Of a DNA stretch of 64,000 nucleotides, positions 3,515 to 22,807 are shown one piece after another. Numbering within the stretch: the stretch's first letter is position 1; each line of letters begins with the position of its first letter. A program made the position numbers and the translations under genes. The notes below the pieces were generated by a model. That model did no database searches. It was not told the DNA's origin and saw only the letters and a list, made by a program, of their open reading frames with translations. Source of the DNA: Rhizobium sp. Q54 (GTDB lineage: Bacteria > Pseudomonadota > Alphaproteobacteria > Rhizobiales > Xanthobacteraceae); the NCBI GenBank assembly GCA_945907045.1, contig CAMDSH010000003.1:94653-158652 (forward strand). The letters run 5' to 3'.

Positions 3515-4099
3515 ATGGACCCGGGCATCAAGATCGTCATCGTCGATGAAAGTCCGGTCCGGGCTGCGATCCTGGAGGACGGTCTGCGCGAGGCCGGCTT
3601 TACGCAGGTCGTGCGCATCAGCGAAATGGCGCACCTGCTCGCGCGCATCTACGCCATCGACCCCGACGTCATCCTGATCGACCTCGCCAACCCCAGCCGC
3701 GACGTGCTGGAGCAGATGTTTCAGGTCAGCCGCATCGTCAAGCGTCCGATCGCGATGTTCGTCGACCAGAGCGACACCGCCTCGATTCAGGCGTCGGTCG
3801 ACGCGGGCGTGTCGGCCTACATCGTCGATGGGCTGAAAAAAGAGCGCATGAAGAACATCCTCGATCTGTGCATCTCGCGCTTCAACGCATTTTCCCGATT
3901 ACAGGGCGAACTCGACCGCACCAAGACGGCGCTTGAGGATCGCAAGATCATCGACAGGGCGAAGGGCATTCTCATGAAAGCGAAGAATCTGTCTGAGGAG
4001 GACGCCTACGCGCTGATGCGCAACACGGCGATGAAGGAGAACAAGAAAATCGCCGAAGTCGCGCAGTCGGTCATCACCGCGGCGGAGATGTTCAAATGA
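3515..4099 (+). CDS. nasT: NasT-type ANTAR-domain transcription antiterminator
   Basis: A 194-residue protein. The N-terminal receiver-like domain (residues 1-120: IKIVIVDESPVRAAIL, conserved Asp in VILIDLANP) is followed by a coiled linker and a C-terminal ANTAR RNA-binding domain (about 130-190: RKIIDRAKGILMKAKNLSEE, then DAYALMRNTA). In this family the protein binds paired hexaloop hairpins in leader RNA and prevents termination. NasS holds it inactive without nitrate. Here it overlaps nasS by four bases and precedes the nrtA leader carrying such hairpins. The Shine-Dalgarno site is weak. Confidence 0.93.
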   Translation: MDPGIKIVIVDESPVRAAILEDGLREAGFTQVVRISEMAHLLARIYAIDPDVILIDLANPSRDVLEQMFQVSRIVKRPIAMFVDQSDTASIQASVDAGVSAYIVDGLKKERMKNILDLCISRFNAFSRLQGELDRTKTALEDRKIIDRAKGILMKAKNLSEEDAYALMRNTAMKENKKIAEVAQSVITAAEMFK

Positions 4100-5268
4100 G
4101 CACGTCCAACACGCGCCTGCGGATCGGTTTCATTCCGCTGGCGGACGCCACCGCCTTGCTCATCGCGGTCGACAAGGGATTTGCCGCCGCCGAGGGACTC
4201 GATATCGATCTGGTGCGCGAAGTCTCGTGGTCGAACGTGCGCGACAAGCTCAACATCGGCCTGTTCGACGCCGCGCACCTCATCGCGCCGGTCGCCATCG
4301 CCTCCAGCCTCGGCCTCGGCCACGTCAAGGTGCCGATCGTTGCGCCCTTTGGCCTGGGCGTGAATGGCAACGCAATTACTGTGTCGCCAGGCCTTTATGC
4401 GGCGATCGTCGCGGCGGCGGACGGCAACATCATCGATCCGATGGTGTCGGCGCGCGCGCTGGCGCGCGTTGTCGCCAATCGCAAAGCCAAGGGCGAAGAG
4501 CCGCTCACCTTCGGCATGACGTTTCCGTTCTCGACGCACAATTATCATCTGCGCTTCTGGATGGCGGCCGGCGGCGTCGATCCTGACGAGGATGTCCGGC
4601 TGGTGGTGCTGCCGCCGCCTTACATGGTCGAGAGTCTGGCCAACAGGCATGTCGATGGCTTTTGCGTTGGCGCACCGTGGAATTCCGTCGCGGTCGATCT
4701 CGGTATCGGCTTCATCCTGCATTTTGTTTCGGAAATTCTCTCGCGCGCAGTGGAAAAGGTGCTGGGTGTGCGCGGCCGCTGGGCGGAAGAAAATCCGGAT
4801 GTACTCGTCCGGCTTGTACGCGCGCATCATCGCGCTGCGGAGTTCGTCGAAGACCCGGCCAATCTCGACGAAGTCGCGGCGTTGCTCGCCGCGCCAAACC
4901 GGATCGGAGCCACCGCCGAGGTGATCCGCCGCACGCTTGTTGGCCGCATGAAGGTGGCACCCGACGGCACCACGCGCGTGAGCGAGCGTTATCTCCTTAT
5001 CGGGCGTAATGGCGCAGCGCGGCCCGATCCCGCGCAGGCGGCGTGGCTTTACGCGCAGATGGTGCGCTGGGGTCAGGCGCCGCTATCGGACGAATTTCTG
5101 GCGACAGCGAAGGCCGTCTTCCGGCCCGATCTGTATGACGCTGCCGTCGGTCCGGCAGCGCCGCTCCCATCAAGCGAACCTGCCGACGGTATCGGCGCTT
5201 TCACCGGTCCTGCGTTCGATCCAAACGACATCGGCGCGCATCTCGCGGTCTGGAAAATCCGGCGCTGA
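4096..5268 (+). CDS. nasS: NasS-type cytoplasmic nitrate sensor
   Basis: A 390-residue paralogue of the NrtA/CmpA binding proteins with no signal peptide (begins MSTSNTRLRIGFIPLADATA), so it stays in the cytoplasm. Family landmarks include DLVREVSWSNVRDKL, GMTFPFSTHNYHLRFWMAA and VDGFCVGAPWN, the nitrate-pocket region also seen in the secreted NrtA downstream. In NasS/NasT systems NasS sequesters NasT until nitrate or nitrite binds. The ATGA overlap with nasT fits stoichiometric production of the pair. Confidence 0.93.
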   Translation: MSTSNTRLRIGFIPLADATALLIAVDKGFAAAEGLDIDLVREVSWSNVRDKLNIGLFDAAHLIAPVAIASSLGLGHVKVPIVAPFGLGVNGNAITVSPGLYAAIVAAADGNIIDPMVSARALARVVANRKAKGEEPLTFGMTFPFSTHNYHLRFWMAAGGVDPDEDVRLVVLPPPYMVESLANRHVDGFCVGAPWNSVAVDLGIGFILHFVSEILSRAVEKVLGVRGRWAEENPDVLVRLVRAHHRAAEFVEDPANLDEVAALLAAPNRIGATAEVIRRTLVGRMKVAPDGTTRVSERYLLIGRNGAARPDPAQAAWLYAQMVRWGQAPLSDEFLATAKAVFRPDLYDAAVGPAAPLPSSEPADGIGAFTGPAFDPNDIGAHLAVWKIRR

Positions 5269-5302: not shown

Positions 5303-5319
5303 TGCACAATAATGTGTCA
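5303..5319 (+). promoter_or_regulatory. Possible NtrC-like dyad upstream of the nrtA promoter
   Basis: TGCACAATAATGTGTCA is an imperfect dyad resembling degenerate NtrC sites (TGCAC half-site). It lies about 110 bases upstream of the sigma-54 candidate at 5428, a usual enhancer distance. Weak evidence: only one half-site is good. Confidence 0.25.
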
Positions 5320-5427: not shown

Positions 5428-5442
5428 TGGCACGAAGCTTGT
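5428..5442 (+). promoter_or_regulatory. Candidate sigma-54 promoter for the nrt-nas-cys operon
   Basis: TGGCAC-N5-TTGT matches the -24 element exactly and the -12 element with one mismatch (T for the final C). Transcription would start near 5454, placing the two hairpins and terminator described below inside the 5' leader. The 364-base gap between nasS and nrtA holds this promoter and the leader; no other gene was seen in it. Confidence 0.55.
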
Positions 5443-5475
5443 AATGAGATGACCAAGGCGCCGGTGGCGCCGAAT

Positions 5476-5508
5476 GTCCAACGACGGGCTGACAGCAACG
5501 CCGCTGTC
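5476..5508 (+). promoter_or_regulatory. ANTAR target: tandem hexaloop hairpins (P1, P2) in the nrtA leader
   Basis: P1 pairs GTCC (5476-5479) with GGGC (5486-5489) around the loop AACGAC. P2 pairs GACAGC (5491-5496) with GCTGTC (5503-5508), a perfect 6-bp stem, around the loop AACGCC. Both loops have six bases with A at position 1 and G at position 4, which is the recognition pattern known for ANTAR proteins such as NasT, NasR and EutV. One base separates the hairpins. The loop and 3' arm of P2 are also used by the downstream terminator, so the two structures exclude each other. Confidence 0.75.
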
Positions 5509-5551
5509 CTGGGGAGCACGCAAAAGCGCGCCTCAGGCTGTGGCGTTTTTT
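5497..5551 (+). terminator. Leader terminator controlled by NasT
   Basis: AACGCC (5497-5502) pairs with GGCGTT (5542-5547). Further in, CCTGGGG (5508-5514) pairs with CCTCAGG (5531-5537, one G-T), and the apex is CGC-AAAA-GCG. A six-T run (5546-5551) follows at once. The 5' arm is the P2 hexaloop itself, so NasT stabilising P2 would block terminator folding. This is the expected antitermination layout. Confidence 0.7.
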
Positions 5552-5632
5552 CATTTGATCAGCCGGCGACGGGGAAACGGCAGGCGGGCGCATCGACCGG
5601 GTCACTCGAATTCCAGAAGGACGAAGACGCAC

Positions 5633-6961
5633 ATGACGAACGTGATCAGCAAGGGAACGAATAAACGCCGCGGCGTCAGCCGCCGCGCATTCCTGAAAGC
5701 CAGCGCAGGGACCGCCGCATTGCTCGGTGCGGTGAACACGCAATTCCCCTTCGGCGCGCACATCGCGCAAGCCGCCGGGCCGGAAGTGACCAAGGCCAAT
5801 CTCGGCTTCATCGCCTTGAGCGATGCAGGCCCGCTCTTCGTTGCCAAGGACAAGGGATTTTTCGCCAAGCACGGCATGCCCGATGTCGAGGTCGCGAAGC
5901 AGGCGTCATGGGGTGCGACACGCGACAATCTTGTGCTCGGCTCGGAAGGCAACGGCATCGACGGCGCGCACATTCTCACGCCGATGCCGTATCTCATCTC
6001 ATCCGGCAAGGTGACGCAGAATAACGTACCGACACCAATGTACATCCTGGCGCGGCTCAATCTCGACAGCCAGTGCATCTCGGTCGCGAAGGAATATGCC
6101 GATCTGAAACTCGGTCTCGATACCAGGCCGTTCAAAGCGGCGCTGGAGAAGAAAAAAGCATCCGGCAAAGCCATCAAGGCCGCCATGACCTTTCCCGGTG
6201 GCACGCATGATCTCTGGCTACGTTACTGGCTCGCCGCCGGCGGTATCGATCCGGACAAGGACATCGAAACGATTGTAGTGCCGCCGCCGCAGATGGTGGC
6301 GAACATGAAAGTTGGCACCATGGATTGCTTCTGCGTCGGTGAACCATGGAACCTGCAACTCATTCATCAGGACATTGGCTATACCGCCGTCAACACGGGC
6401 GAGATCTGGAACAAGCATCCAGAGAAGTCGCTCGGCATGCGCGCCGCCTGGGTGGATAAGTATCCAAATGCGGCGAAGGCGCTGCTGATGGCTGTGATGG
6501 AGGCCCAGCAATGGGCTGACAAGACCGAGAACAAGGTCGAACTCGCGGCCATCATGGGCAAACGGCAATGGATGAATTGCCCGGTCGAGGACGTCTACGA
6601 CCGCACGGCGGGAAAATTCGACTACGGCATTCCCGGCAAGGTGGTCGAGAACTCGCCCCACATCATGAAGTACTGGCGCGATCACGCCTCCTATCCGTTC
6701 CAGAGCCACGAACTCTGGTTCATGACCGAGGATATCCGCTGGGGCAAATACGAAGGCGGTTTCGACTCAAAGGCCCTGATCAAGAAGGTGAACCGCGAAG
6801 ATCTCTGGCGCGAAGCGGCGAAGGAGCTCGGCGTCCCCGCTGCCGATATCCCGACGTCCACCTCGCGCGGCAAGGAGACGTTCTTCGACGGCAAGGTTTT
6901 CGATCCCGAAAATCCGGCCGCTTACCTGAAGAGCCTCTCCATCAAGCGTGTCGAAGTGTGA
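5633..6961 (+). CDS. nrtA: Nitrate ABC transporter, periplasmic binding protein (Tat-exported)
   Basis: A 442-residue protein; the start at 5633 has AGAAGG upstream, and the longer frame from 5474 would run through the leader terminator. A twin-arginine signal (KRRGVSRRAFLKASAG) marks Tat export. The mature part matches NrtA/NasF: PEVTKANLGFIALSDAGPLF, AMTFPGGTHDLWLRYWLAA and MDCFCVGEPWN. It binds nitrate (and probably nitrite) in the periplasm and passes it to NrtB. It shares its fold and pocket segments with cytoplasmic NasS upstream. Confidence 0.95.
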   Translation: MTNVISKGTNKRRGVSRRAFLKASAGTAALLGAVNTQFPFGAHIAQAAGPEVTKANLGFIALSDAGPLFVAKDKGFFAKHGMPDVEVAKQASWGATRDNLVLGSEGNGIDGAHILTPMPYLISSGKVTQNNVPTPMYILARLNLDSQCISVAKEYADLKLGLDTRPFKAALEKKKASGKAIKAAMTFPGGTHDLWLRYWLAAGGIDPDKDIETIVVPPPQMVANMKVGTMDCFCVGEPWNLQLIHQDIGYTAVNTGEIWNKHPEKSLGMRAAWVDKYPNAAKALLMAVMEAQQWADKTENKVELAAIMGKRQWMNCPVEDVYDRTAGKFDYGIPGKVVENSPHIMKYWRDHASYPFQSHELWFMTEDIRWGKYEGGFDSKALIKKVNREDLWREAAKELGVPAADIPTSTSRGKETFFDGKVFDPENPAAYLKSLSIKRVEV

Positions 6962-7034: not shown

Positions 7035-7937
7035 ATGAACATGCCGCAAGTCAAAACTGAAAAAGCGAAAGCAGTTGCCATGCCGCAACCGGCGCCGGCA
7101 GTTGTGTTGCCGCTTGAAATCAAGCGCTCGCAATTGGGTGAGAAAATTCTCGCGCGCCTCGGCGATATCGCCGCGCGTGTCATTCCTCCCGTGGTCGTTA
7201 TCGCCATCGCATTGATCGTATGGGAATTGCTGTGCCGCAAAGCCGGGGCCACGCTGCCGCCGCCCTCGCGAGTCTTGAAGGAGACACGGGAACTGATCCT
7301 CGATCCGTTCTTCGATCGCGGCGGTATCGACCGCGGGCTGTTCTGGCATCTCTCGGCGAGCCTGCAGCGCGTGGCGCTGGGCTATGCGCTTGCGTCCATC
7401 GTGGGCGTGGCGCTCGGCACGCTGGTTGGACAATCGATGTGGGCGATGCGCGGCCTCGATCCTATTTTCCAGGTTCTGCGCACGGTTCCGCCGCTCGCCT
7501 GGTTGCCACTTTCTTTGGCGGCATTCCGCGACGGCCAGCCTTCGGCGATCTTCGTCATTTTCATCACCGCGATCTGGCCGGTCATCATCAACACCGCCGT
7601 CGGTATTCGAAACATTCCGCAAGACTATCGCAACGTCGCGAAGGTGCTGCGGCTCAACCAGCTCGAGTTCTTCTGGAAAATCATGGTGCCGTCGGCGGCG
7701 CCGTACATTTTCACTGGATTGCGCATCGGCATCGGCCTGTCGTGGCTCGCGATCGTCGCGGCCGAAATGCTCATCGGCGGCGTCGGCATCGGCTTCTTCA
7801 TCTGGGATGCCTGGAATTCCTCGCACATCAGCGAAATCATCCTGGCGCTGATCTACGTCGGCATCATCGGTTTCGTTCTCGACCGGATGGTCGCGGGCGT
7901 ATCCAGCCTTGTCACCCGTGGCACCGCAGCCAACTGA
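7035..7937 (+). CDS. nrtB: Nitrate ABC transporter permease
   Basis: A 300-residue inner-membrane permease with a charged, Pro/Ala-rich cytoplasmic N-terminus (about 50 residues) and about six membrane segments. The EAA loop lies near residues 195-215 (GIRNIPQDYRNVAKVLRLNQ), and the stretch QVLRTVPPLAWLPLSLAAFRDG is characteristic of NrtB. It forms the nitrate channel together with NrtA and the ATPase at 7948. A purine-rich GGAGACAC site precedes the ATG. Confidence 0.94.
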   Translation: MNMPQVKTEKAKAVAMPQPAPAVVLPLEIKRSQLGEKILARLGDIAARVIPPVVVIAIALIVWELLCRKAGATLPPPSRVLKETRELILDPFFDRGGIDRGLFWHLSASLQRVALGYALASIVGVALGTLVGQSMWAMRGLDPIFQVLRTVPPLAWLPLSLAAFRDGQPSAIFVIFITAIWPVIINTAVGIRNIPQDYRNVAKVLRLNQLEFFWKIMVPSAAPYIFTGLRIGIGLSWLAIVAAEMLIGGVGIGFFIWDAWNSSHISEIILALIYVGIIGFVLDRMVAGVSSLVTRGTAAN

Positions 7938-7947
7938 GGAACGAAAA

Positions 7948-8742
7948 ATGACGGCCTATCTCAAAATCGATCACGTCGACAAAACTTTCGTTCGCGGTTC
8001 GACGGAAACCGAAGTGCTCAAAGACATCTCGCTCTCCATCGATCACGGCGAGTTCGTCTCCATCATCGGCCACTCCGGTTGCGGCAAGACCACGCTGCTC
8101 AATATCGTCGCCGGCCTGGTTCCGGTGACGGCGGGTTGCGTGTTGCTGGAAAACCGCGAAGTCAACGAACCGGGACCGGATCGCGCGGTGGTGTTCCAGA
8201 ACCACAGCCTGCTGCCGTGGCTCACGGTCTACGACAACGTGAAACTGGCGGTGGACAAAGTGTTCGCCGGCAAGAAATCTCGTGCCGAGCGCCACGCATG
8301 GACGCTGCATAATCTCGACCTCGTGCAGATGACGCATGCCAAGGACAAGCGCCCGGCGGAAATTTCCGGCGGCATGAAACAGCGTGTCGGGCTTGCCCGT
8401 GCGCTCGCGATGGAGCCGAAGGTATTGCTGCTCGATGAGCCGTTCGGAGCGCTCGATGCTCTCACCCGCGCGCATCTGCAGGATTCGGTGATGGCGCTGC
8501 ACCTGAAACTCAAAAACACGGTGCTGATGATCACGCACGACGTCGATGAAGCCGTGCTGCTTTCCGACCGCATCGTGATGATGACGAATGGGCCGTCGGC
8601 GCGCATCGGCGAAGTGCTGGACGTGCCGCTGCCACGCCCGCGCAAGCGGCTGGAATTGGCGGCGAACCAGACTTATCTCAAATGCCGCCAGCGCGTGCTT
8701 GAGTTCCTTTACGAGCGTCACCGCTTCGTCGAAGCGGCGTGA
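7948..8742 (+). CDS. nrtD: Nitrate ABC transporter ATP-binding protein
   Basis: A 264-residue ATPase with all motifs: Walker A GHSGCGKTT (about residue 42), Q-loop FQNHSLLPWL, signature ISGGMKQRVGLARAL, Walker B VLLLDEPFGALDAL and H-loop ITHD. It lacks the C-terminal NrtA-like extension of cyanobacterial NrtC, so this single gene supplies both ATPase copies (the same gene is called nrtC in Bradyrhizobium). The start at 7948 has TGAGGAAC upstream. Confidence 0.93.
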   Translation: MTAYLKIDHVDKTFVRGSTETEVLKDISLSIDHGEFVSIIGHSGCGKTTLLNIVAGLVPVTAGCVLLENREVNEPGPDRAVVFQNHSLLPWLTVYDNVKLAVDKVFAGKKSRAERHAWTLHNLDLVQMTHAKDKRPAEISGGMKQRVGLARALAMEPKVLLLDEPFGALDALTRAHLQDSVMALHLKLKNTVLMITHDVDEAVLLSDRIVMMTNGPSARIGEVLDVPLPRPRKRLELAANQTYLKCRQRVLEFLYERHRFVEAA

Positions 8743-8755
8743 GCGGCGCAGCGCC

Positions 8756-9970
8756 ATGAGCGAACCGCTCATCGTCATCGGCAACGGCATGGCCGCTGCG
8801 AAGTTCGTGGAAGAACTCGCCGCGCGCGCGCTTGGCCGTTACGCGGTGGCGGTGATCGGCGAGGAACCGCGGCTTGCCTATAACCGCGTGTTGCTGTCCT
8901 CGCTGTTGGCCGATGAAATCGGCGCATCCGATGTCGAAATGAAATCCGCGCAATGGTGGCAGGATCGCGGCGTCACGCTGCTTTATGGGCATGGCGCGAC
9001 TGCGATCGATACCTCGATCCGCCGCGTGCGGTTGGCCAGCGGCGCGACGCTTCCTTTCACCAAGCTCGTGCTCGCCACAGGCTCCAATCCGATCCGTCTC
9101 AATACGCCGGGGATGGGACTTCCCGGCGTTCTCACGTTCCGCAATCTCGGCGACGTTGCCGCCATTCGCAGCGCAGCCGGCAAAGGCAAACGCGCGGTCG
9201 TCATTGGCGGCGGGCTGCTCGGCCTCGAAGCCGCGCATGGGCTCGCCAAAACCGGCGCCAAAGTGACGCTGGTGCATCTGATGGACCGGCTGATGGAGCG
9301 CCAGCTCGACAAGCCGGCGGCGGAGATGCTCAAGCGCGACGTGGAGGCGAGGGGCGTCAATGTGCTGCTGGCGGCGGAGACGGCGCGCATTGGCGGGCGC
9401 CGCAAAGTTGAATCGGTCACGCTCACCGACGGTCGCATTATCCCCGCCGACATCGTCGTGGTCGCGGTCGGCGTTCGTCCGAATACCGAGCTTGCGCGTG
9501 CCGGCGGGCTCAACGTCAATCGCGGCATTGTCGTTGACGATGGAATGATGACGAGCATCGCCGGCATTCACGCCATCGGCGAATGCGCCGAACATCGCGC
9601 GCAGTGCTACGGCATCGTCGAGCCGGCCTATGAACAGGCGAAATTGCTGGCGCAGCGTTTCGCGGGCGAAGACGTTCGCTATGGCGGCAGCGTGCAGGCG
9701 ACAAATCTCAAAGTGTCCGGCGTCAATGTGTTTTCCGCCGGAGATTTTCTTGGAGTGGAAGGGACCGAGTCCGTCGTCTTGTCCGACCCCGGCTTCGGTA
9801 CTTACAAGAAAATCGTCATCCGCGACGGCCGCCTCATCGGCGCAGTGCTGTTCGGCGATACCGCCGATGGACTCTGGTATCTCGATCTCATCCGCACGGG
9901 AACGTCGGTGGAACACTTCCGCGACGACATCTTGTTCGGTCGAAAATTCGCCGAACGCGCGGCGGCCTGA
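8756..9970 (+). CDS. FAD/NAD-dependent oxidoreductase, NasB/NirB N-terminal type
   Basis: A 404-residue pyridine nucleotide-disulfide reductase-fold protein. The FAD Rossmann motif is at the N-terminus (LIVIGNGMAAAKFVEELA) and the NAD(P) motif near residue 145 (AVVIGGGLLGLEAA); a second FAD segment IHAIGECAEHR lies near 270. It matches the reductase part of NirB and the NasB-type subunit but lacks their Fe-S and siroheme domains. Its place between nrtD and nirA suggests that it passes NAD(P)H electrons to NasC, probably through the BFD-like cluster of NasC. Confidence 0.85.
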   Translation: MSEPLIVIGNGMAAAKFVEELAARALGRYAVAVIGEEPRLAYNRVLLSSLLADEIGASDVEMKSAQWWQDRGVTLLYGHGATAIDTSIRRVRLASGATLPFTKLVLATGSNPIRLNTPGMGLPGVLTFRNLGDVAAIRSAAGKGKRAVVIGGGLLGLEAAHGLAKTGAKVTLVHLMDRLMERQLDKPAAEMLKRDVEARGVNVLLAAETARIGGRRKVESVTLTDGRIIPADIVVVAVGVRPNTELARAGGLNVNRGIVVDDGMMTSIAGIHAIGECAEHRAQCYGIVEPAYEQAKLLAQRFAGEDVRYGGSVQATNLKVSGVNVFSAGDFLGVEGTESVVLSDPGFGTYKKIVIRDGRLIGAVLFGDTADGLWYLDLIRTGTSVEHFRDDILFGRKFAERAAA

Positions 9971-9977
9971 GGTATCC

Positions 9978-11744
9978 ATGTCCGGGGATTTCTCATCAGA
10001 ACAAAAAAGATACCTCGAAGGTTTCATGTCGGGGCTCAACGCAGCGCGCGCCGCGCGCGGTACGCTGGCGGGGGGCCAAGGCGCTTCGCAGCCTTCGGGA
10101 CCTGACGCGCCGCACATCGCCGCGCAGGATCGTGTCATCGCATCGGGACAAAAGCTGTCCGATCCGGAAAAGTTCAAACGCGAACAGCATCCGTTCGATG
10201 CCTATGAGCGGCTCAAAAGCCAGGCGGAAAAGAACGAAGCGCCGAAGCCCGCCGACAATTTCCGCTGGCGCTATTTCGGCCTGTTTTATGTTGCGCCCGC
10301 GCAGACCTCGTATATGTGCCGGCTGCGAATTCCAAACGGCATTCTCACGCACGCGCAATTCGCCGGCGTCGCCGATCTGGCCGAGCGCTACGGCGGCGGC
10401 TATTCGCACGTCACCACGCGCGCCAATCTGCAGATCCGCGAGGTCGAGCCGAAAAACGCGGCGGCTGTGGTTGAGACTATCCAGGATTTGGGCCTGTGCT
10501 CGCGCGGCTCCGGCGCCGACAATATCCGCAACGTTACCGGCACGCCGACTGCGGGAATTGACCGCCAAGAGTTGATCGACACGCGGCCCTATGCGCGCGA
10601 ATGGCATTTTCACATTCTCAACGAGCGCGTGCTGTACGGCTTGCCGCGCAAATTCAACGTCGCGTTCGACGGGGCGGGGATAATCCCGGTGCTGGAAGAC
10701 ACCAACGACATCGGCTTTCAGGCGGTCGAGGTGCGCGAGGGCTTCGGGCTTGCGCCTGGCGTTTGGTTTCGTCTGGCGCTTGGCGGCATTACCGGCCATC
10801 GCGATTTCGCGCGCGATACCGGCATCGTGGTCCGGCCGGAAGAAGCAACCCATGTTGCTGATGCCGTTGTTCGCGTCTTCATCGACCACGGCAACCGCAC
10901 CGACCGCAACAAGGCGCGGCTCAAATACGTGCTCGATCAATTCGGCATGGAAAAGTTCGTCACGCATGTCGAAGAGAAGCTGGGACGCAAACTCGACCGC
11001 GCGCCGGCCGAGGCGTTGGTGCCGCGCCCCCGTTTCGACCGCAGCGCGCATATCGGCGTGCATGCGCAGAAGCAGAAAGGTTTGAACTGGATCGGCGTCG
11101 TGCTGCCGGTTGGCAAGCTCACCGCCGAGCAGATGCGCGGGCTGGCGAAAATTTCACACGATCTTGGCGATGGCGATATCCGTCTCACCGTCTGGCAAAA
11201 TCTGCTGATCTCCGGCGTGGCGGACGCGCAGGTGAAAGTGGCGAAAGCCGCCATCGCGGCGCTCGGCCTCACCACGCAGGCAACGTCAATTCGTGCCGGG
11301 CTGGTGGCCTGCACCGGCAATGTCGGCTGCCGCTTTTCGGCCTCCGATACCAAGCGCCATGCCGAGGAAATCGCGCGCTGGTGCGAGGCGCGCGTGCAGC
11401 TCGACGGGCCGGTGAATATCCATCTCACCGGCTGCCATCATTCTTGCGCGCAGCATTACATCGGCGACATCGGATTGCTTGCCTGCAAAGTAGAGGTCAC
11501 GCCCGAGAGCGATCCGGTGGAGGGCTATCATGTGCTGGTCGGCGGTGGCTTCGGCCATGAAGCCGGGCTTGCGCGCGAGATTTATCGCGATGTGAAGGCG
11601 GAAGACGCGCCGAAAACCATCGAGCGCATGCTGTCGTCCTATCTCGTCAATCGCGCTGCGCCTGACGAAACATTCCTCGCTTTTTCCCGGCGGCATGAGA
11701 TCGACGCGCTTAAAACGATTTTCGCGGTGGAGGGCGAAGCATGA
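9978..11744 (+). CDS. nirA: Assimilatory nitrite reductase, NirA family (siroheme/4Fe-4S)
   Basis: A 588-residue siroheme reductase. The cluster ligands are visible as Cys-x5-Cys (ACTGNVGCRF, near residue 450) and Cys-x3-Cys (TGCHHSCAQHY, near 487). TTRANLQIREV and RNVTGTPTAG are further family motifs. The HHSCAQHYIGDIG form is that of nitrite reductases rather than CysI. It reduces nitrite to ammonium in the cytoplasm. The N-terminus carries EQKRYLEGFMSGLNAARA, a motif shared with the flavoprotein at 11741 and CysJ at 14797, and probably a docking element. The 3' end overlaps the next gene by four bases. Confidence 0.92.
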   Translation: MSGDFSSEQKRYLEGFMSGLNAARAARGTLAGGQGASQPSGPDAPHIAAQDRVIASGQKLSDPEKFKREQHPFDAYERLKSQAEKNEAPKPADNFRWRYFGLFYVAPAQTSYMCRLRIPNGILTHAQFAGVADLAERYGGGYSHVTTRANLQIREVEPKNAAAVVETIQDLGLCSRGSGADNIRNVTGTPTAGIDRQELIDTRPYAREWHFHILNERVLYGLPRKFNVAFDGAGIIPVLEDTNDIGFQAVEVREGFGLAPGVWFRLALGGITGHRDFARDTGIVVRPEEATHVADAVVRVFIDHGNRTDRNKARLKYVLDQFGMEKFVTHVEEKLGRKLDRAPAEALVPRPRFDRSAHIGVHAQKQKGLNWIGVVLPVGKLTAEQMRGLAKISHDLGDGDIRLTVWQNLLISGVADAQVKVAKAAIAALGLTTQATSIRAGLVACTGNVGCRFSASDTKRHAEEIARWCEARVQLDGPVNIHLTGCHHSCAQHYIGDIGLLACKVEVTPESDPVEGYHVLVGGGFGHEAGLAREIYRDVKAEDAPKTIERMLSSYLVNRAAPDETFLAFSRRHEIDALKTIFAVEGEA

Positions 11745-13360
11745 CGCAAGCCCCGCGCCCGCCGCTGCCGATGCTGGTTCCGGAAACCGCGCCGTTCAAC
11801 GAGGAACAGCGCACGTGGCTGAACGGTTTCTTCGCCGGTCTGGTTTCACTCGATACAGCGGGCGGGGTGACCGCGCTATCTCCCGAACAGTCCGCCTCGC
11901 TGCTGTCCGGCAACGCAAGCGCCGCGCAGGACGATGACGATGGCGCGCCCTGGCACGACCAGACGTTGCCGTTAGCCGAGCGCATGAAGCTTGCCGAAGG
12001 CCATCCGCTGCAACGGCGGATGATGGCAGCAATGGCGCAGCAGGATTGCGGCCAGTGCGGCTACGATTGCCACAACTATTCCAGTCTGATCGCGACCAAG
12101 AAAGAAGAGCGGCTGAATCTCTGCGTGCCGGGCGGCAAGGAAACCGCCCGCATGCTGAAAAAACTTTACGAGGAAGTTGGCGCTGCGCCGCCGCCGGCCC
12201 CCGCGATTTCATCTCCGGTTTCGGCGCCCGCCGCTGCGGTCTCCGCGCCGGGCCGCTCCCGCGATAATCCTGTCGAGGCGAAGCTGCTCTCCTGCACACT
12301 CTTGAACAAACCGGGTTCGGAGAAAGAAACCTGGCACGTCGAGTTCGATCTGTCGCAATGCGGACTGGACTACTCCGTTGGAGATTCTTTCGGCATTTTT
12401 CCGCGCAACGATCCGGTGCTGGTGGAAGCCGTCATCAAGGCAATCGGTGCGCCGCCGGAATTTCCCATCGGCGGGCGTACGCTGCGCGAGGTGCTCACCG
12501 ACGGTGCGTCGCTTAGCCCTGCGCCAGATATGCTGTTTCAGTTGATCTCCTACATCACCGGCGGCGAGCGCCGGAAAAAAGCAAGAGCATTCGCCGCCGG
12601 GGAAGACCCGGATGGAGACGCTGAAACGCTCGATGTGCTCGCGGCGCTGGAAAAATTCTCCTGCGTGCGGCCCGACCCGGAGGCTTTCGTCGAGGCACTT
12701 GATCCGTTGCAGCCGCGGCTCTATTCGATTTCATCGTCGCCCAAGGCGCATCCGGGGCGGCTATCGACGACGGTCGATACGGTTCGCTACACGATCGACG
12801 ATCGCACGCGGCTCGGCGTTGCGTCCACGTTTCTCGCCGAGCGCATCAAGCCCGGCGACACGTTGAAAATCTACGTGCAGAAGGCACACGCTTTCGGTCT
12901 GCCCGCCGATCCCTCGGTGCCGATCATCATGATCGGTCCCGGCACCGGCGTCGCACCGTTCCGTGCCTTTCTATATGAGCGCATGGCCACGAAGGCACCG
13001 GGCCGCAATTGGCTGTTCTTCGGCCATCAACGCCGGAATTGCGATTTCTTCTATGAGGACGAACTCGCCGGCATGAAAGCCGCCGGTGTGCTCACGCGTC
13101 TCTCGCTCGCATGGTCGCGCGACGACGTGCAGAAATTCTACGTGCAGGATCGCATGCGTGAAGTTGGCCGCGACCTGTGGTCGTGGCTTGCCGACGGCGC
13201 ACATATTTATGTCTGTGGCGATGCCAAGCGCATGGCGAAGGACGTGGAAGGCGCGCTGATCGAGATCGTCGCCGCGCACGGAGCGCGCTCCACCGATGAG
13301 GCGATTGCTTTCGTCACCGATCTCAAAAAACGCGGCCGCTATCAGCAGGACGTTTACTGA
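11741..13360 (+). CDS. CysJ-like FAD/NADPH flavoprotein with N-terminal 4Fe-4S module (probable NirA electron donor)
   Basis: A 539-residue protein. Residues 1-45 carry EEQRTWLNGFFAGLVSLD. Residues about 98-135 hold an RnfB-like 4Fe-4S module (DCGQCGYDCHNY then LCVPGGK). From about 180 on it is a CysJ/ferredoxin-NADP reductase module: RLYSISSSP (FAD), MIGPGTGVAPFRAFL (NADPH) and terminal RYQQDVY. The flavodoxin (FMN) domain of true CysJ is missing and the iron-sulfur module sits in its place. Overlap with nirA (ATGA) makes NirA the likely partner. It is often annotated simply as sulfite reductase alpha subunit. Confidence 0.85.
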   Translation: MTQAPRPPLPMLVPETAPFNEEQRTWLNGFFAGLVSLDTAGGVTALSPEQSASLLSGNASAAQDDDDGAPWHDQTLPLAERMKLAEGHPLQRRMMAAMAQQDCGQCGYDCHNYSSLIATKKEERLNLCVPGGKETARMLKKLYEEVGAAPPPAPAISSPVSAPAAAVSAPGRSRDNPVEAKLLSCTLLNKPGSEKETWHVEFDLSQCGLDYSVGDSFGIFPRNDPVLVEAVIKAIGAPPEFPIGGRTLREVLTDGASLSPAPDMLFQLISYITGGERRKKARAFAAGEDPDGDAETLDVLAALEKFSCVRPDPEAFVEALDPLQPRLYSISSSPKAHPGRLSTTVDTVRYTIDDRTRLGVASTFLAERIKPGDTLKIYVQKAHAFGLPADPSVPIIMIGPGTGVAPFRAFLYERMATKAPGRNWLFFGHQRRNCDFFYEDELAGMKAAGVLTRLSLAWSRDDVQKFYVQDRMREVGRDLWSWLADGAHIYVCGDAKRMAKDVEGALIEIVAAHGARSTDEAIAFVTDLKKRGRYQQDVY

Positions 13361-13564
13361 TGACGGCCTCAATGCACACGCCGCGCCTGTTGGAGGCCGA
13401 AAAACGGCGCGGGAGGCATTCTCCCGGCCCGCGGCAAAATAGGCAAGAAAACACCTCGTTTTGGCCATTAAAGGAAGAAAGTTCTTATTTTTTCAATGTT
13501 ATTGCCTTTAAAGGGAACAATATTCTAGTTGAGAGGATTGCGTCATTTTACGGGAGTCCTCTCC

Positions 13565-13690
13565 ATGTCCGATCAATCGCCGCATCAGCCTGGCGCGCGG
13601 CTGTTCACCCTCGACAGCTGGGCGGTGGCCGCCGCCGCCGTCTTCATTCTTCTGATTGTCGCCGGCGTATTGCCGCGCGTTCCCTGGTAA
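13565..13690 (+). CDS. 41-residue single-span membrane protein before the YeiH-type gene
   Basis: Too short for the ORF track. It encodes MSDQSPHQPGARLFTLDSW, then a hydrophobic span (AVAAAAVFILLIVAGVL), ending in PRVPW. A GGAG site lies nine bases before the ATG and the stop is six bases before the exporter gene. The tight spacing argues for a small partner or stabilising subunit of that transporter. The 204 bases upstream hold no other gene; they are AT-rich and include a GAGAGGA/TCCTCTC inverted repeat around the leader, so a separate promoter is possible. Confidence 0.6.
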   Translation: MSDQSPHQPGARLFTLDSWAVAAAAVFILLIVAGVLPRVPW

Positions 13691-13696
13691 CGCGCC

Positions 13697-14776
13697 ATGT
13701 CCATTTCAATCACCGCCGACGAACGCTTCTCGCTCCCCCGCCGCCTTGTCGAGTTGCTGCCCGGCATAGCGCTACTGTTTGTCATCGGCTTTCTCGGCAA
13801 GCTGATCGAGAACAGCATCGACGTTTACGGCAAGACGCATCATCTCGCGCTGCCCAAGATCGAATACGTGCTGTGGGCGATTTTGATCGGGTTGATCATC
13901 GCCAACACCGTCGGCGTGCCACGCATCTTCCGCGCCGGCGTCGACACTTACGAATTCTGGCTCAAAATTGGAATCGTGCTGCTGGGCGTGCGTTTCCTGC
14001 TGGGCGATGTACTCAAGCTCGGCGGCATCAGCCTGTTCGCGGTCGTCATGGAGTTGGGCATCGCCATCGGTTTGATGCTCTGGCTCGGCAATCTGTTCAA
14101 GCTCTCGCCCAAGCTCACCAGCCTGCTGGCGATAGGTTCCTCGATCTGCGGCGTGTCGGCGATCATCGCCGGCCGCGGCGCGATCAACGCGCGCGACGAG
14201 GATGCTTCGTTCGCGATCGCCGCGATTTTGGCGCTCGGCGCATTCGGCTTGTTCACCTATCCGCTGATTGCCGCAGCACTGGGAATGAACGATCACGCTT
14301 ATGGCCTGTGGGTGGGTCTTGCCATCGACAACACCGCGGAAGCGGCGGCGGCGGGCGCGCTATGGTCGGACGAAGCCGGCAAGGTCGCCGTGCTGGCGAA
14401 GACCACGCGCAACGCAATGATCGGCTTCGTGGTGCTCGGTTTCGCGCTCTATTGGGCGACGCGCGGCCAGGCTGCGAAAATCGAGAACAAGGCGCTTTTC
14501 CTGTGGGAGAAGTTTCCGAAGTTCGTGCTCGGCTTCCTCGTCGTCTCGCTCGCCGCGACCTTCGGCGCCTTCAGCAAGGAGCAGTCGGCCGACATCGCGA
14601 ACCTTTCGCGCTGGGCTTTCCTGCTGACCTTCGCGGGCGTCGGGCTGCGGACCGACTTTCGCGAGATGCGCAAGCAGGGCTTCTACCCGTTCGTCGTCGG
14701 CGCGATTGCGGAAATCGTGGTGACCATCGCGACGCTCATCATGGTTCTGCTGTTGCAGCCCTGGCTGCCGGCCTGA
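13697..14776 (+). CDS. YeiH/UPF0324 family putative sulfate/sulfite exporter
   Basis: A 359-residue polytopic membrane protein with about ten hydrophobic segments. Family landmarks are GIVLLGVRFLLGDVLKLGG, SSICGVSAIIAGRGAINARD and FLLTFAGVGLRTDFREMRKQG. Members are annotated as putative sulfate exporters, though direct evidence for the substrate is scant. Its place before cysJ-cysI suggests handling of sulfate, sulfite or a related anion. The long overlapping open frame from 13360 is a high-GC artefact. Confidence 0.85.
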   Translation: MSISITADERFSLPRRLVELLPGIALLFVIGFLGKLIENSIDVYGKTHHLALPKIEYVLWAILIGLIIANTVGVPRIFRAGVDTYEFWLKIGIVLLGVRFLLGDVLKLGGISLFAVVMELGIAIGLMLWLGNLFKLSPKLTSLLAIGSSICGVSAIIAGRGAINARDEDASFAIAAILALGAFGLFTYPLIAAALGMNDHAYGLWVGLAIDNTAEAAAAGALWSDEAGKVAVLAKTTRNAMIGFVVLGFALYWATRGQAAKIENKALFLWEKFPKFVLGFLVVSLAATFGAFSKEQSADIANLSRWAFLLTFAGVGLRTDFREMRKQGFYPFVVGAIAEIVVTIATLIMVLLLQPWLPA

Positions 14777-14796
14777 GGGGCGATCGTGAAACGAAC

Positions 14797-16545
14797 ATGA
14801 CCATCTCCACGATCCCGAAGACCGCTCCTTTCGGCGAGGAGGAGATCGCCATCCTCAACCGCGTGGTGGGGCCCGCGAATGCAACGCAACGTGCGTGGCT
14901 CGCGGGCTTCCTCGCGGGTCTTGATGCATCCACCGCGACGTTGCAGCCGGCGGCTCCAGCGCGTCCGGCAAAACCGCTGACGATTTTGTATGCCAGCGAG
15001 TCCGGGAATTGTGAGGGGCTCGCCGCTGACATGGCGAAGGCCGCACGCAAACAGGGTTTCAAGCCTTCACTCGTAGATTTCGCCGATCTCGATGTGTCGA
15101 CGTTGTCCGGCATGCGTCACCTCATCGTCATCGCGGCGACCTGGGGCGAGGGCGAAGCGCCTGCGCGTGCTGTGAACGCTTACGCCGATCTGATGAGCGA
15201 GAAGGCGCCGCGTCTCGATGGCGTCGAATACGGCGTGCTCGCGCTCGGCGACACCGCTTACGTGCAATTCTGCGCAATCGGCAAGGCAATCGACGAACGG
15301 CTCGCGGCGCTCGGTGCCAAACGCGTTGTCAATCGCATCGACTGCGATCTGGATTTCGCGGAGCCTGCGAAGCAATGGATCGATGCCGCGCTGGTAACGC
15401 TTGCGCCCGCCCCAGACCCGAATGCCGGCAGGGTGATCGAGGTCGATTTCGGCGCGAAGCTGGCAAGCGTTCAAAGTCTTGAGCCGATTGAGGCCGAGAT
15501 CATCGAGCGCATCAATCTCAACTCGTCGCGCTCGGACAAGGAAACTTTCCATCTCGAACTTGGCTTCGATGGCGAAGCGCCGGCCTACAAACCGGGAGAT
15601 TCGCTCGACCTTTATGCGCCGAACGATCCGGTTTACGTGGACGAACTATTGAAAATCACCGGTCTGACAGCGGATGCCACGTTGCGCGCGGAGCTGACAA
15701 AATCGCGCGACATCACGACGCTCTCGCTCAAGACCGTGGAAAGCTACGCCGCCGCCACCGGCCATCAATATGTGAAGACGCTGATCGAATCCGGCGAAGC
15801 TCCGGCCTGGATCGTTGGGCGGCAGCTTATCGATCTGCTTGCGATGTATCCGATTTCACTGACGGCCGAGCAGTTGCTCGGCGTCACGCGGCCACTCGCG
15901 CCGCGGGCCTATTCGATTGCGTCCTCGCGCCGCGAAGTTGGCGAGGAGGCGCATCTGCTTATCGCCGCCGTGCGTTACGAAAGTCATGGCCGCGCGCGCA
16001 AGGGCGTGGCGTCGATCTTTGTCGCCGAGCGGCTGAAAAAAGGCGACCGCGTGCGCGTGAAACTCAAGCCCAACAAGCATTTCGCGCTGCCGGCGCCAGA
16101 GCGCGACATCATCATGGTCGGTCCCGGCACCGGCGTTGCGCCGTTTCGCGCCTTTGTGCAGGAGCGGCGCGCGGCCGGCGCTTCGGGCCGCAGCTGGCTG
16201 TTCTTCGGCGATCGCCATTACACGCACGATTTTCTCTATCAGCTTGAGTGGCAGGACGCGCTCAAGGACGGCGGATTGACGCGGATGGATGTCGCGTTCT
16301 CGCGCGACACGCTGGAAAAGAATTACGTGCAGCACCGCATCTGGGATCGCCGCCGCGATCTCGTCGAATGGCTCGACGACGGCGCACACATTTATGTCTG
16401 CGGCGATGCGAAAGCGATGGCGAAAGACGTGCGTGCGATGCTGGTGCGCGCCATTGGTGACGTGAAGGGCCTCACGCCGGAAGCCGCCGAGGAGGCCGTG
16501 CGAACAATCGAAAAAGAACGGCGTTACCAGCAGGACGTTTACTAA
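14797..16545 (+). CDS. cysJ: Sulfite reductase (NADPH) flavoprotein alpha subunit
   Basis: A 582-residue protein; the start at 14797 is taken because the frame shared with the 1061-aa ORF upstream only becomes CysJ here. Residues 20-45 contain QRAWLAGFLAGLDAS, like the oligomerisation/docking region of E. coli CysJ. A flavodoxin domain (about 60-205: LTILYASESGNCEGLA, AATWGEGEAPARA) binds FMN. FAD (RAYSIASSR, about 369) and NADPH (MVGPGTGVAPFRAF, about 441) modules follow, with terminal RYQQDVY. It feeds NADPH electrons to CysI, four bases downstream. Confidence 0.92.
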   Translation: MTISTIPKTAPFGEEEIAILNRVVGPANATQRAWLAGFLAGLDASTATLQPAAPARPAKPLTILYASESGNCEGLAADMAKAARKQGFKPSLVDFADLDVSTLSGMRHLIVIAATWGEGEAPARAVNAYADLMSEKAPRLDGVEYGVLALGDTAYVQFCAIGKAIDERLAALGAKRVVNRIDCDLDFAEPAKQWIDAALVTLAPAPDPNAGRVIEVDFGAKLASVQSLEPIEAEIIERINLNSSRSDKETFHLELGFDGEAPAYKPGDSLDLYAPNDPVYVDELLKITGLTADATLRAELTKSRDITTLSLKTVESYAAATGHQYVKTLIESGEAPAWIVGRQLIDLLAMYPISLTAEQLLGVTRPLAPRAYSIASSRREVGEEAHLLIAAVRYESHGRARKGVASIFVAERLKKGDRVRVKLKPNKHFALPAPERDIIMVGPGTGVAPFRAFVQERRAAGASGRSWLFFGDRHYTHDFLYQLEWQDALKDGGLTRMDVAFSRDTLEKNYVQHRIWDRRRDLVEWLDDGAHIYVCGDAKAMAKDVRAMLVRAIGDVKGLTPEAAEEAVRTIEKERRYQQDVY

Positions 16546-16549
16546 GGCC

Positions 16550-18265
16550 ATGCCGCAAGAACTCTCGCGCAACGAACGAATTAAAGAAGCGAGCGATTAT
16601 CTGCGCGGTACGCTGGCCGAAGGCTTGGCCGAAGACATCACCGGCTCCATCGTCGAGGACGATGCGCAACTGGTGAAATTCCACGGCATGTATCTGCAGG
16701 ACGACCGCGACCTGCGCTCGGAACGCACGCGCAAGAAACTCGAGAAGGCGTTCGCCTTCATGATCCGCGTGCGAATTTCCGGCGGCGTGCTCACACCGCA
16801 GCAATGGCTCGCGCTCGACCGCGTCGCGCGTGTTTATGGCAACGGCACCATGCGCCTTACCACGCGGCAGACGGTTCAATTGCACGGCATCATCAAGTCG
16901 AATCTGAAATCGACCATGAAGGCCATCGACGCGGCGCTGTTGGGATCGATCGCGGCTTGTGGCGATGTCAACCGCAACGTGATGTGCAATCCCAATCCGT
17001 TCCAGTCGCGCGCGCATGCAGCGGCGCTGGAACTGGCGCGCGCCGTCTCCGATCATCTGACGCCGCGCACGCCCGCCTATCGCGAAATCTGGCTCGACGG
17101 CGAACGCATCGCCGGCGGCGAAGACGAAGTGATTGAGCCGATCTACGGCAAGACGTATCTGCCGCGAAAATTCAAAACCGTGGTAGCGGTGCCGCCGCAC
17201 AATGACGTGGATGTGTTCGCGCACGATCTTGGCTTCATCGCCATTCTCGATAATGAGGGCCATGTCGAAGGTTGGAACGTCACCGTCGGCGGCGGCATGG
17301 GCATGACGCACGGCGAGCCCGACACTTACCCGCGCACGGCCGACGTGATGGGTTTTTGCCGGACGCGCGATGCGCTTTCGATAGCGGAATCGGTTGTTAC
17401 CGTGCAGCGTGACTGGGGTGACCGCGCCAACCGCAAGCATGCGCGGCTTAAATATACCATCGAGGATCGCGGGCTGGCCGCGTTCCGTGCTGAGGTCGAG
17501 CGCCGCGCGGGCGTGTTGCTCGATGCATCACGGCCCTTCAAGTTCACCTCCACCTGCGATCGTTATGGCTGGAGCGCGGGCGAGAACGGGCGCGGCCATC
17601 TCACGTTGTTCGTCGAGAACGGGCGCATCTCTGACGTGAAAGGCGGCGCGCAGCAGCTCGCGGTTTTGCGAAAGATCGCCGAGAGCCATAGCGGCGACAT
17701 TCGCATCACCGCCAATCAGAATCTTATCATCGCCAATGTGCCGGTTGAGCGGCAGGCGGAAATCGAAAAACTCGCGGCGGATGCCGGATTGCTCGCGCCC
17801 TGGTCTGGCCTGCGCCGTAACGCGATGGCCTGCGTCGCGCTGCCGACCTGCGGTCTCGCGCTCGCCGAGAGCGAACGCTATCTGCCGGATCTGATCGGCG
17901 CGCTCGACGAGCGGCTGGCGGCGCATGGTCTTTCCGCCGACGACATCGTCATCCGCATGACTGGCTGCCCGAACGGTTGTGCGCGGCCTTATCTCGCCGA
18001 GATCGGTTTGGTCGGAAAAGGCCCCGGCCGCTACAATCTTTATCTCGGCGCGGCGTTCGATGGTTCGCGGCTTTCAAAACTCTATGCGGAAGACCTCGAT
18101 CACAAGGCGATCGTCGCCGCGCTCGATCCGCTGTTTGCCGCATATGCGGGACAACGGAACGCAGGCGAACGCTTCGGCGATTTCTGCATCCGCGCGGGAT
18201 TTATCGCGGCCACCACAAATGGCCGCGACTTCCACGCCAACGTCAAAGCGGGAACCGCGGCATGA
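16550..18265 (+). CDS. cysI: Sulfite reductase hemoprotein beta subunit
   Basis: A 571-residue siroheme/4Fe-4S reductase. Cys-x5-Cys (ACVALPTCGLA, near residue 425) and Cys-x3-Cys (TGCPNGCARPY, near 475) ligate the coupled cluster. TTRQTVQLHGIIK, GDVNRNVMCNPNP and VGKGPGRYNLYLG are CysI landmarks that set it apart from NirA at 9978. With CysJ it reduces sulfite to sulfide with six electrons. Its stop overlaps nasC (ATGA), which ties sulfite and nitrate reduction into one transcript. A role as second nitrite reductase cannot be excluded, as CysI enzymes also turn over nitrite. Confidence 0.92.
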   Translation: MPQELSRNERIKEASDYLRGTLAEGLAEDITGSIVEDDAQLVKFHGMYLQDDRDLRSERTRKKLEKAFAFMIRVRISGGVLTPQQWLALDRVARVYGNGTMRLTTRQTVQLHGIIKSNLKSTMKAIDAALLGSIAACGDVNRNVMCNPNPFQSRAHAAALELARAVSDHLTPRTPAYREIWLDGERIAGGEDEVIEPIYGKTYLPRKFKTVVAVPPHNDVDVFAHDLGFIAILDNEGHVEGWNVTVGGGMGMTHGEPDTYPRTADVMGFCRTRDALSIAESVVTVQRDWGDRANRKHARLKYTIEDRGLAAFRAEVERRAGVLLDASRPFKFTSTCDRYGWSAGENGRGHLTLFVENGRISDVKGGAQQLAVLRKIAESHSGDIRITANQNLIIANVPVERQAEIEKLAADAGLLAPWSGLRRNAMACVALPTCGLALAESERYLPDLIGALDERLAAHGLSADDIVIRMTGCPNGCARPYLAEIGLVGKGPGRYNLYLGAAFDGSRLSKLYAEDLDHKAIVAALDPLFAAYAGQRNAGERFGDFCIRAGFIAATTNGRDFHANVKAGTAA

Positions 18266-20967: not shown

Positions 20968-22417
20968 AACGCGTCCTCCCCGCATGGAAACGCTGGCGCG
21001 CTTGCCGGTGTTCTTCGCGCTTGAGGGCAAACGCGCCGTGGTCGCGGGCAACAGCGCGGCGGTCGCCTGGAAGGCGGAACTGCTGGCGGCGGCGGGCGCG
21101 GCGATCGATCTTTATGCGCCCCTCGCGAGTGAGGAACTTCGTGCGGTCGCGCGTGAATTCGATTTGATTCGTCTCAATCCACGTTCGTGGCAGGCTGGCG
21201 ATTTTGCAGGCGCGGCCATCGCGGTCGGCGGCTGCGACGATGAAGACGAGGCTGCCCGCTTCGCGGCTGCCGCGCGCGCTGCCGGGGTGCCGGTCAACGT
21301 CATCGACAAACCGGCGTTCTGCGATTTCGCTTTCGGCTCCATCGTCAATCGTTCTCCCCTGGTCATTAGCATCTCGACCGACGGTGCCGCGCCGGTTTTC
21401 GCGCAGGCGATCCGTGCCAAGCTCGAGGCAATGCTGCCGCACGGTTTCGCGTTGTGGGCGAAGGCCGCGCGCCGCTGGCGGGCAGGGGTGCAATCGTCCG
21501 GTTTGTCTTTCGCGGGCCGCCGCCGGTTCTGGCAGATTTTCACCGCGCATGCTTTGCGTAATCCCGGCAATGCGCCAACCGAATCCGACTTCGATTCGTT
21601 CGCGGGCGTTGCGCGGGCGGAAGGCGTTGCGGTGGACAGCGGTTCGGTCGTGCTTGTGGGCGCCGGCCCCGGCGATCCCGAATTGCTCACGCTGCGTGCC
21701 GTGCGCGCGCTGCAATCCGCCGACGTCATTCTGTTCGACGATCTCGTCGCGCCGGAAGTGCTCGACTTTGCCCGCCGTGAGGCGAAGAAAATGTTGGTCG
21801 GAAAAACCGGCGGCGGCCCGTCGTGCAAGCAGGCGGATATCAACGCGCTGATGGTCTCGCTCGCCAAAGGCGGCAAACGCGTCGTGCGCCTCAAGGGGGG
21901 CGACCCGATGATTTTCGGCCGGGCGGGGGAGGAGATCGCGGCCTGCCGCGCCGCCGGAATTTCCGTTGAAGTCGTGCCGGGCATCAGCGCCGCGCAAGGC
22001 GTCGCCAGCCGCCTCGGCGTCTCCCTCACCCATCGCCGCTACGCACGCCGTCTTCAATATGTCACCGGCCACGCCGAAAATGGTGGCCTGCCTGCGGATC
22101 TTGATTGGAAAAGTCTCGCCGATCCCGCCGCGACCACCGCCATCTATATGCCGAAAAAGACACTGGCCGAATTCGCCGCGAAGGCTATCGCGCATGGTCT
22201 CGATGCATCGACGCCGGCGATCGCAGTTTCGAAAGCAACGCGGCCCGATGAGACGATCGTTACCGGAACGCTCGGCAACCTGCCGGAGCGGCTTGTGGCT
22301 GCGGGCTTGAGCGGTCCGGTTATGGTATTGGTCGGCCGCGTTGCCGCCGATTACGCCGCGGATGCCACGCTCACAGCGCCGCGGTCGTCTGCACCTCGAC
22401 GAGAAATGCTTCGTTGA
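20942..22417 (+). CDS. cysG: Siroheme synthase (uroporphyrinogen methyltransferase/dehydrogenase/ferrochelatase)
   Basis: A 491-residue three-activity enzyme. Residues 20-220 are the precorrin-2 dehydrogenase/sirohydrochlorin ferrochelatase half (LPVFFALEGKRAVVAGNSAA; SPLVISISTDGAAPVFA). Residues about 235-480 are the SAM methyltransferase half (VLVGAGPGDPELLTLRAVRA; VVRLKGGDPMIFGRAGEE). It supplies siroheme to NirA and CysI, which explains its place at the end of the operon. The start at 20942 lies inside the nasC 3' end with AAGGAAAAG upstream. The 3' end overlaps ridA tail to tail by 47 bases. Confidence 0.93.
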   Translation: MSISRTPSETRPPRMETLARLPVFFALEGKRAVVAGNSAAVAWKAELLAAAGAAIDLYAPLASEELRAVAREFDLIRLNPRSWQAGDFAGAAIAVGGCDDEDEAARFAAAARAAGVPVNVIDKPAFCDFAFGSIVNRSPLVISISTDGAAPVFAQAIRAKLEAMLPHGFALWAKAARRWRAGVQSSGLSFAGRRRFWQIFTAHALRNPGNAPTESDFDSFAGVARAEGVAVDSGSVVLVGAGPGDPELLTLRAVRALQSADVILFDDLVAPEVLDFARREAKKMLVGKTGGGPSCKQADINALMVSLAKGGKRVVRLKGGDPMIFGRAGEEIAACRAAGISVEVVPGISAAQGVASRLGVSLTHRRYARRLQYVTGHAENGGLPADLDWKSLADPAATTAIYMPKKTLAEFAAKAIAHGLDASTPAIAVSKATRPDETIVTGTLGNLPERLVAAGLSGPVMVLVGRVAADYAADATLTAPRSSAPRREMLR

Positions 22418-22778: not shown

Positions 22779-22807
22779 AGGGCAGTTTCCGTTTTGCGCG
22801 GTTGCGG

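Follow-up and report, generated by a model that had tools for sequence, protein, structure and literature searches.

Rhizobium sp. Q54 carries, within the 64,000-nt stretch of DNA analysed here (the window), the regulatory genes nasT and nasS, a short structured leader, and a long series of genes for nitrate assimilation into which genes for sulfite reduction are interposed. This arrangement raises two questions: whether the leader is an RNA target through which NasT controls transcription, and how far along the operon such control would extend. Judged from sequence, the leader is in all likelihood a NasT-dependent (ANTAR) transcription attenuator upstream of a nitrate-assimilation operon, an identity supported by its anatomy, by covariation, and by co-occurrence with nasT. 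The dual-hexaloop NasT leader is a member of an already known, well-understood class. The less ordinary part of the locus is a sulfite cassette, with what is very probably its own conserved promoter block, lodged within the nitrate operon.

Leader anatomy and folding

The regulatory genes and the elements of the leader are as follows.

3515..4099, + strand: nasT, response-regulator receiver plus ANTAR RNA-binding domain (PF03861, 74 bits; PF00072, 34 bits)
4096..5268, + strand: nasS, nitrate/nitrite sensor with a substrate-binding-protein fold (PF13379, 239 bits)
5428..5443, + strand: sigma-54 promoter, -24/-12 TGGCAC-N5-TTGTA (exact match; same place by pattern in most leaders inspected)
5457..5471, + strand: GC-rich hairpin GGCGCC-ggt-GGCGCC, 5' of P1 (fold, sequences)
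5476..5489, + strand: P1 hairpin gtcc-AACGAC-gggc, hexaloop AACGAC at 5480-5485 with A1 and G4 (sequence, fold; two-sided pair changes in relatives)
5491..5508, + strand: P2 antiterminator hairpin gacagc-AACGCC-gctgtc, hexaloop AACGCC at 5497-5502 with A1 and G4 (sequence, fold; loop nearly invariant in 32 leaders)
5497..5551, + strand: intrinsic terminator, 5' arm starting with the P2 loop, T6 at 5546-5551 (fold -30.1 kcal/mol, RNAalifold consensus, covariation)

The genes nasT and nasS overlap by 4 nt and lie directly upstream of the leader, so that a REC-ANTAR NasT adjoins a substrate-binding-like NasS, the arrangement of the NasS-NasT two-component system. A genome search gave one match to an ANTAR protein, and NasT is thus the sole one detected. 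Read from the sequence, TGGCACGAAGCTTGTA (5428-5443, + strand) forms a sigma-54 box 5' of the two hairpins; it fits TGGCAC-N5-TTGYW exactly, with TTGTA as the -12 element, and its position is conserved. The pattern has 1 exact match in 64 kb, and 3.3 matches would be expected if one mismatch were allowed. A one-mismatch sigma-54-like site, TGGAACGGGTCTTGCA, lies at 3413-3428, about 90 nt before nasT, and a pattern search places similar sites ahead of nasT in only 6 of 71 relatives. At 5303-5318, TGCACAATAATGTGTC has 2 mismatches to the NtrC pattern, which at 3 mismatches gives 334 matches versus 319, the chance frequency.

The P1 stem has 4 pairs and the P2 stem 6, where a dual-hexaloop element calls for at least 3. 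The terminator at 5497-5551 runs from AACGCC to GGCGTTTTTT; the P2 loop AACGCC pairs with GGCGTT, and the loop and 3' arm of P2 are common to P2 and the terminator. The end of the T-run is about 80 nt upstream of the nrtA start. Tandem hairpins, A1/G4 hexaloops, overlap of P2 with a terminator, and an ANTAR protein in the genome, which are among the defining features of ANTAR target RNAs (Ramesh et al. 2012), are all found here. The initial annotation had read the AACGAC and AACGCC loops of adjacent hairpins as a fit to the ANTAR A1/G4 code, which is correct to the base, and had identified the P2 loop with the 5' arm of a terminator ending in T6, which can be read directly at 5497-5551; nasT-nasS directly upstream and a sigma-54 promoter before the leader were both present as it described.

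Tandem A1/G4 hexaloop hairpins arose in 25 of 20,000 dinucleotide-preserving shuffles of 5444-5560, and in none of the 20,000 did the second hexaloop also belong to the arm of a terminator with a T-run. When segments were slid along the entire window on both strands, the combination of hexaloops and terminator was unique to the leader site. The RNAfold minimum for 5450-5560 consists of P1 plus the terminator (-47.9 kcal/mol, against -40.1 for shuffles with an sd of 3.7; z -2.1), and the nascent RNA to 5515 folds as P1 plus P2 (-13.7 kcal/mol). This succession, with P1 and P2 in the nascent RNA and P1 and the terminator in the complete RNA, is the order of events expected of an attenuator. Because the fold only moderately beats the shuffles, it is the specific arrangement and the comparison, not the energy, that carry the argument.

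Leaders in related genomes

Loci of relatives were obtained by fetching nasT homologues from genome collections. Dozens of genomes within the Hyphomicrobiales share this layout between nasS and nrtA, and P1 and the terminator stem show compensatory changes among them. Among 49 leaders inspected (window included), 42 have, by pattern, a sigma-54 box, followed by hairpins and usually by a T-run terminator; an analogue of the GC-rich hairpin 5' of P1, with a different sequence, is found in many relatives. A strict search for P1/P2 hairpins in 80 relatives gave few matches, because many stems are short or interrupted; its place was taken by a search anchored on the P2 core and a covariance model. 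The Rfam covariance search proposed for an ANTAR/nasT-type motif, run on the window at gathering and relaxed thresholds, returned nothing relevant (the weak matches were to unrelated families) and was uninformative; the model built here was used instead.

Given 32 aligned leaders and no supplied structure, RNAalifold returned P1 plus the terminator as the consensus. Across the named pairs of these leaders, 87% of cells are paired and 26 cells are changed on both sides, versus 9.5 when columns are shuffled and no more than 11 when the register is slid; variable pairs in P1 show CG, UG, UA, GC, and AU alternatives. G4 is invariant in both loops, and A1 is present in 32/32 leaders in P2 and 30/32 in P1; the P2 conservation is partly by construction, because the P2 core served to select the aligned sequences, and the P1 figure is somewhat favourable, because leaders without a recognisable P1 were mostly left out. 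The inner pairs of the P2 stem hardly vary, variation being confined to loop-distal positions, so that support for the antiterminator form comes more from the conserved loop than from covariation. P1 itself is kept in most relatives and is degenerate or missing in some.

Of 33 genomes with a strong nasT match, 32 give a covariance-model match to the leader (E < 1e-6); of the 28 that lack a strong nasT match, only 1 does. In this tally many of the leaders found, and none of the absences, belonged to the model's training set. In the only nasT genome lacking a leader (G007), the contig stops 240 bp beyond nasT. In the draft genome G028, where no nasT was detected, a full sigma-54 and hexaloop/terminator leader (L185, G028:C433:12893-12977, minus strand) directly follows cysI-cysG; it may be an orphan, or nasTS may lie on a missing contig. 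The genome of the window contains one copy of the leader (E 1.4e-14; next match 0.25), and the covariance-model search found no further NasT targets there below E 0.2.

Several relatives depart from the common layout. In Bradyrhizobium loci among L009-L081, the leaders next to nasTS retain the sigma-54 box and, in the roughly 100 nt that follow it, a CAGC-AACGAA-GCTG hexaloop; P1 is altered or deleted, and no T-run terminator lies nearby. NasT control may differ at these loci. Two others (L018, L036) have a sigma-54 box, a strong GC hairpin holding AACG(C/T)C, no clear P1, and a weak T-run, and are possible one-hexaloop variants. One nitrate operon (L186, about 840-945; G041:C23:168849-168940) contains a second leader with its own sigma-54-like box, flanked by an nrtC-like gene and the gene for the FAD oxidoreductase.

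Two other accounts of the leader can be weighed against this comparison. Its position 3' of nasS and its intrinsic-terminator form would suit a plain terminator of the nasTS transcript with coincidental hexaloops. A sigma-54 promoter intervenes between nasS and the terminator, however, members of different families retain P1 and the two A1/G4 loops and show compensatory substitutions in the stems, no shuffle reproduced the overlap, and the leader is almost confined to nasT genomes; coincidence is accordingly the least probable account, and would be very surprising. Alternatively, the hairpins might act after initiation without antitermination (e.g., by affecting RNA stability or translation), and NasT might bind P2 only. 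EutV is able to bind a single hexaloop (PMC8934654), and L018, L036, and the Bradyrhizobium loci retain only one clear hexaloop; yet the leader here ends some 80 nt short of nrtA and overlaps a strong T-run terminator, and most relatives retain P1, which makes this account highly improbable, if slightly less so than coincidence. The NasT-dependent attenuator remains the preferred reading.

The nitrate operon and its sulfite cassette

Behind the leader, the operon comprises the following features.

5633..6961, + strand: nrtA, nitrate ABC transporter substrate-binding protein with Tat signal (PF13379, 356 bits; TIGR01409)
7035..7937, + strand: nrtB, nitrate ABC permease (TIGR01183 above cut-off)
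7909..8742, + strand: nrtC/D, nitrate ABC ATPase (TIGR01184 above cut-off)
8753..9970, + strand: FAD/NAD(P)H oxidoreductase, like the NirB N-terminal part, start approximate (profile matches, synteny)
9960..11744, + strand: nirA, assimilatory nitrite reductase, start approximate (NF007126, 1021 bits, cut-off 523)
11741..13360, + strand: cysJ1, cysJ-like flavoprotein accompanying nirA in relatives (NF004859, 895 bits; synteny)
13484..13527, + strand: promoter-like block CTTATTT-N9-TATTGC-N17-TTCTA at the start of the sulfite cassette (20/41 genus genomes)
13565..14776, + strand: 41-aa membrane peptide (13565-13690) and yeiH (13697-14776; PF03601)
14797..18265, + strand: cysJ (14797-16545) and cysI (16550-18265), NADPH sulfite reductase (TIGR02041 above cut-off)
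18280..22417, + strand: nasA, nitrate reductase (about 18280-20967), and cysG, siroheme synthase (to 22417) (profile matches, synteny)

Two candidate reading frames were rejected. An apparent 1061-aa fusion at 13360-16545 owes its 480-aa N-terminus to reading the gap and yeiH out of frame, which yields an Arg-rich sequence, and the ORF at 22341-22811 has no family match.

The sulfite cassette (the 41-aa membrane peptide, yeiH, cysJ, and cysI) is inserted in the window between cysJ1 and nasA. The typical nas operon of the genus consists of nrtABC or a variant, the FAD oxidoreductase, nirA, cysJ1, nasA, and cysG, and cysI is absent from it in most nasTS relatives, whose cysI sits elsewhere in the genome (e.g., about 150 kb away in G004). 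The cassette is preceded by a gap of 336 nt (13361-13696) with a core at 13470-13560 of 34% GC, versus 61% overall. Within the gap is a 44-nt block that recurs with exact spacing in 20 of the 41 genus genomes, matching once in each (0 for a reversed control pattern); in the loci inspected it sits upstream of cysJI, mostly far from nasT. Its TATTGC and TTCTA(T), 17 nt apart, resemble promoter hexamers with an upstream activator element, and the block at 13484-13527 is probably the promoter/operator of the cassette. Because the AT-rich gap carries this exactly spaced, conserved block, the yeiH-cysJ-cysI cassette is very probably served by a promoter of its own at about 13484-13527. The 41-aa peptide, MSDQSPHQPGARLFTLDSWAVAAAAVFILLIVAGVLPRVPW (13565-13690), has a single membrane segment and is conserved between the block and yeiH, with similar forms at L146, L147, L190, and L197. 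In Salmonella, YeiH is a sulfite-resistance factor controlled by the LysR regulator YeiE (PMC12880088).

The initial annotation had suggested that one RNA could control 17 kb, with genes for sulfite reduction among those reached. The genes do run in the same direction behind the NasT leader, but the nearest are nrtABC, the FAD oxidoreductase gene, nirA, and the cysJ-like gene, and those of sulfite reduction proper follow only afterwards, in a separate cassette with its own gap and conserved block. In its strongest form the suggestion would make one transcript under NasT control, running for about 17 kb between 5455 and 22417, the only expression route and would place yeiH-cysJ-cysI under nitrate control. 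All genes do lie on one strand with tight or overlapping junctions except at 13361-13696, terminator-like sites in between occur at the chance level (23 found versus 20.6 expected), CysI and NirA of this cluster (one each) are the only NIR_SIR proteins detected in the genome, and an internal promoter is compatible with read-through. Against an exclusive transcript stand the 336-nt gap with its AT-rich core, the occurrence of the 44-nt block mostly where cysJI is not near nasT, and the lack of the cassette in the nas operon of relatives. Such a transcript is therefore doubtful as the only route, and sole control of the sulfite genes by the leader is unlikely; the cassette is probably expressed also, or mainly, from its own promoter, and transcription that reads through the NasT leader may contribute.

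No match to PF01507 (PAPS reductase/CysD) was found in the genome of the window (G000), where cysJI is present, and 35 of 41 genus genomes have one; the absence is only suggestive, because the host assembly is a draft genome and 91% complete. It suggests that sulfite comes from sulfonates, not sulfate, the alternative being the incomplete draft. A more speculative proposal, against which the balance also leans, though somewhat less heavily than against the exclusive transcript, is that the nitrate operon has acquired the only sulfite reductase detected in the genome by relocation, that nitrate (by NasT read-through) and a separate sulfur signal (by the block at 13484-13527) would jointly set sulfite reduction, and that the sulfur signal would also feed nasA and cysG.

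Known systems and a proposed sequence of events

Azotobacter vinelandii, in which a nas leader is reportedly under NasT/NasS control, is counted among the closest systems. As here, nasTS is directly upstream in Paracoccus and at Bradyrhizobium nirA (PMC3795266, PMC5424462, PMC4724949, PMC6759348), and the nas leaders of both have hairpins between nasS and the structural genes, with nitrate-assimilation genes downstream. The operon content differs, with nrtABC and nirA here in contrast to nasABGHC. Unlike these NasT/NasS systems, this locus has a clear sigma-54 box between nasS and the leader, and a sulfite cassette inserted downstream. The nasF leader of Klebsiella oxytoca is alike in its ANTAR protein, nitrate signal, A1/G4 hexaloop, and terminator overlap, and nasF expression responds in addition to general nitrogen (Ntr) control (PMC3369931, PMC5424462); Klebsiella NasR senses nitrate itself via a NIT domain, whereas here the sensor NasS and the antiterminator NasT are separate.

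The eut leaders of Enterococcus faecalis, targets of EutV, share the P1/P2 dual hexaloop, A1/G4, and a P2 buried in the terminator (PMC3369931, PMC8934654); the EutV REC domain is phosphorylated by EutW, unlike the situation here. Loop-to-loop spacing is about 18 nt in eutP as numbered in the published work (A29/G32, A53/G56), compared with 11 nt here and 10-16 nt in relatives. The P1-P2 linker is 5-12 nt in the E. faecalis eut leaders, 1 nt between full stems here, and 0-7 nt in most relatives; the general definition of ANTAR targets permits a variable linker (PMC3369931).

Anatomy and homology together suggest a sequence of events. Under nitrogen limitation, sigma-54 RNA polymerase would start near 5455. 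Without nitrate, NasS would hold NasT, the terminator (-30 kcal/mol) would prevail over P2 (-9 kcal/mol), and transcription would stop at about 5551. Nitrate or nitrite would free NasT to bind the A1/G4 loops of the nascent RNA, P1 and then P2; by keeping P2 folded, NasT would let the polymerase enter nrtABC-nirA-cysJ1, and proceed further if no other stop intervenes. The operon would thus respond to two serial inputs: nitrogen limitation would act through the sigma-54 promoter, and nitrate through the terminator. These steps have precedents in characterized systems. In Paracoccus denitrificans, nitrate or nitrite releases NasT from NasS and NasT binds the nasA leader RNA (PMC3795266), the nas leader hairpins having also been studied (PMC5424462). 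EutV is a dual-hexaloop antiterminator that requires A1 and G4 (PMC3369931), and from its structure successive binding of P1 and then P2 was proposed (PMC8934654). In Bradyrhizobium, nirA is induced by nitrate, nirA and nasC induction depends on NasT (PMC4724949), and a NasT hairpin is predicted upstream of nirA (PMC6759348).

Covariation and co-occurrence across genomes support a sigma-54-driven NasT attenuator in Hyphomicrobiales nitrate operons, and a covariance model for the leader now exists where Rfam returned none. The sulfite cassette within the nitrate operon offers a natural test of two regulatory inputs that share siroheme-dependent reductases.
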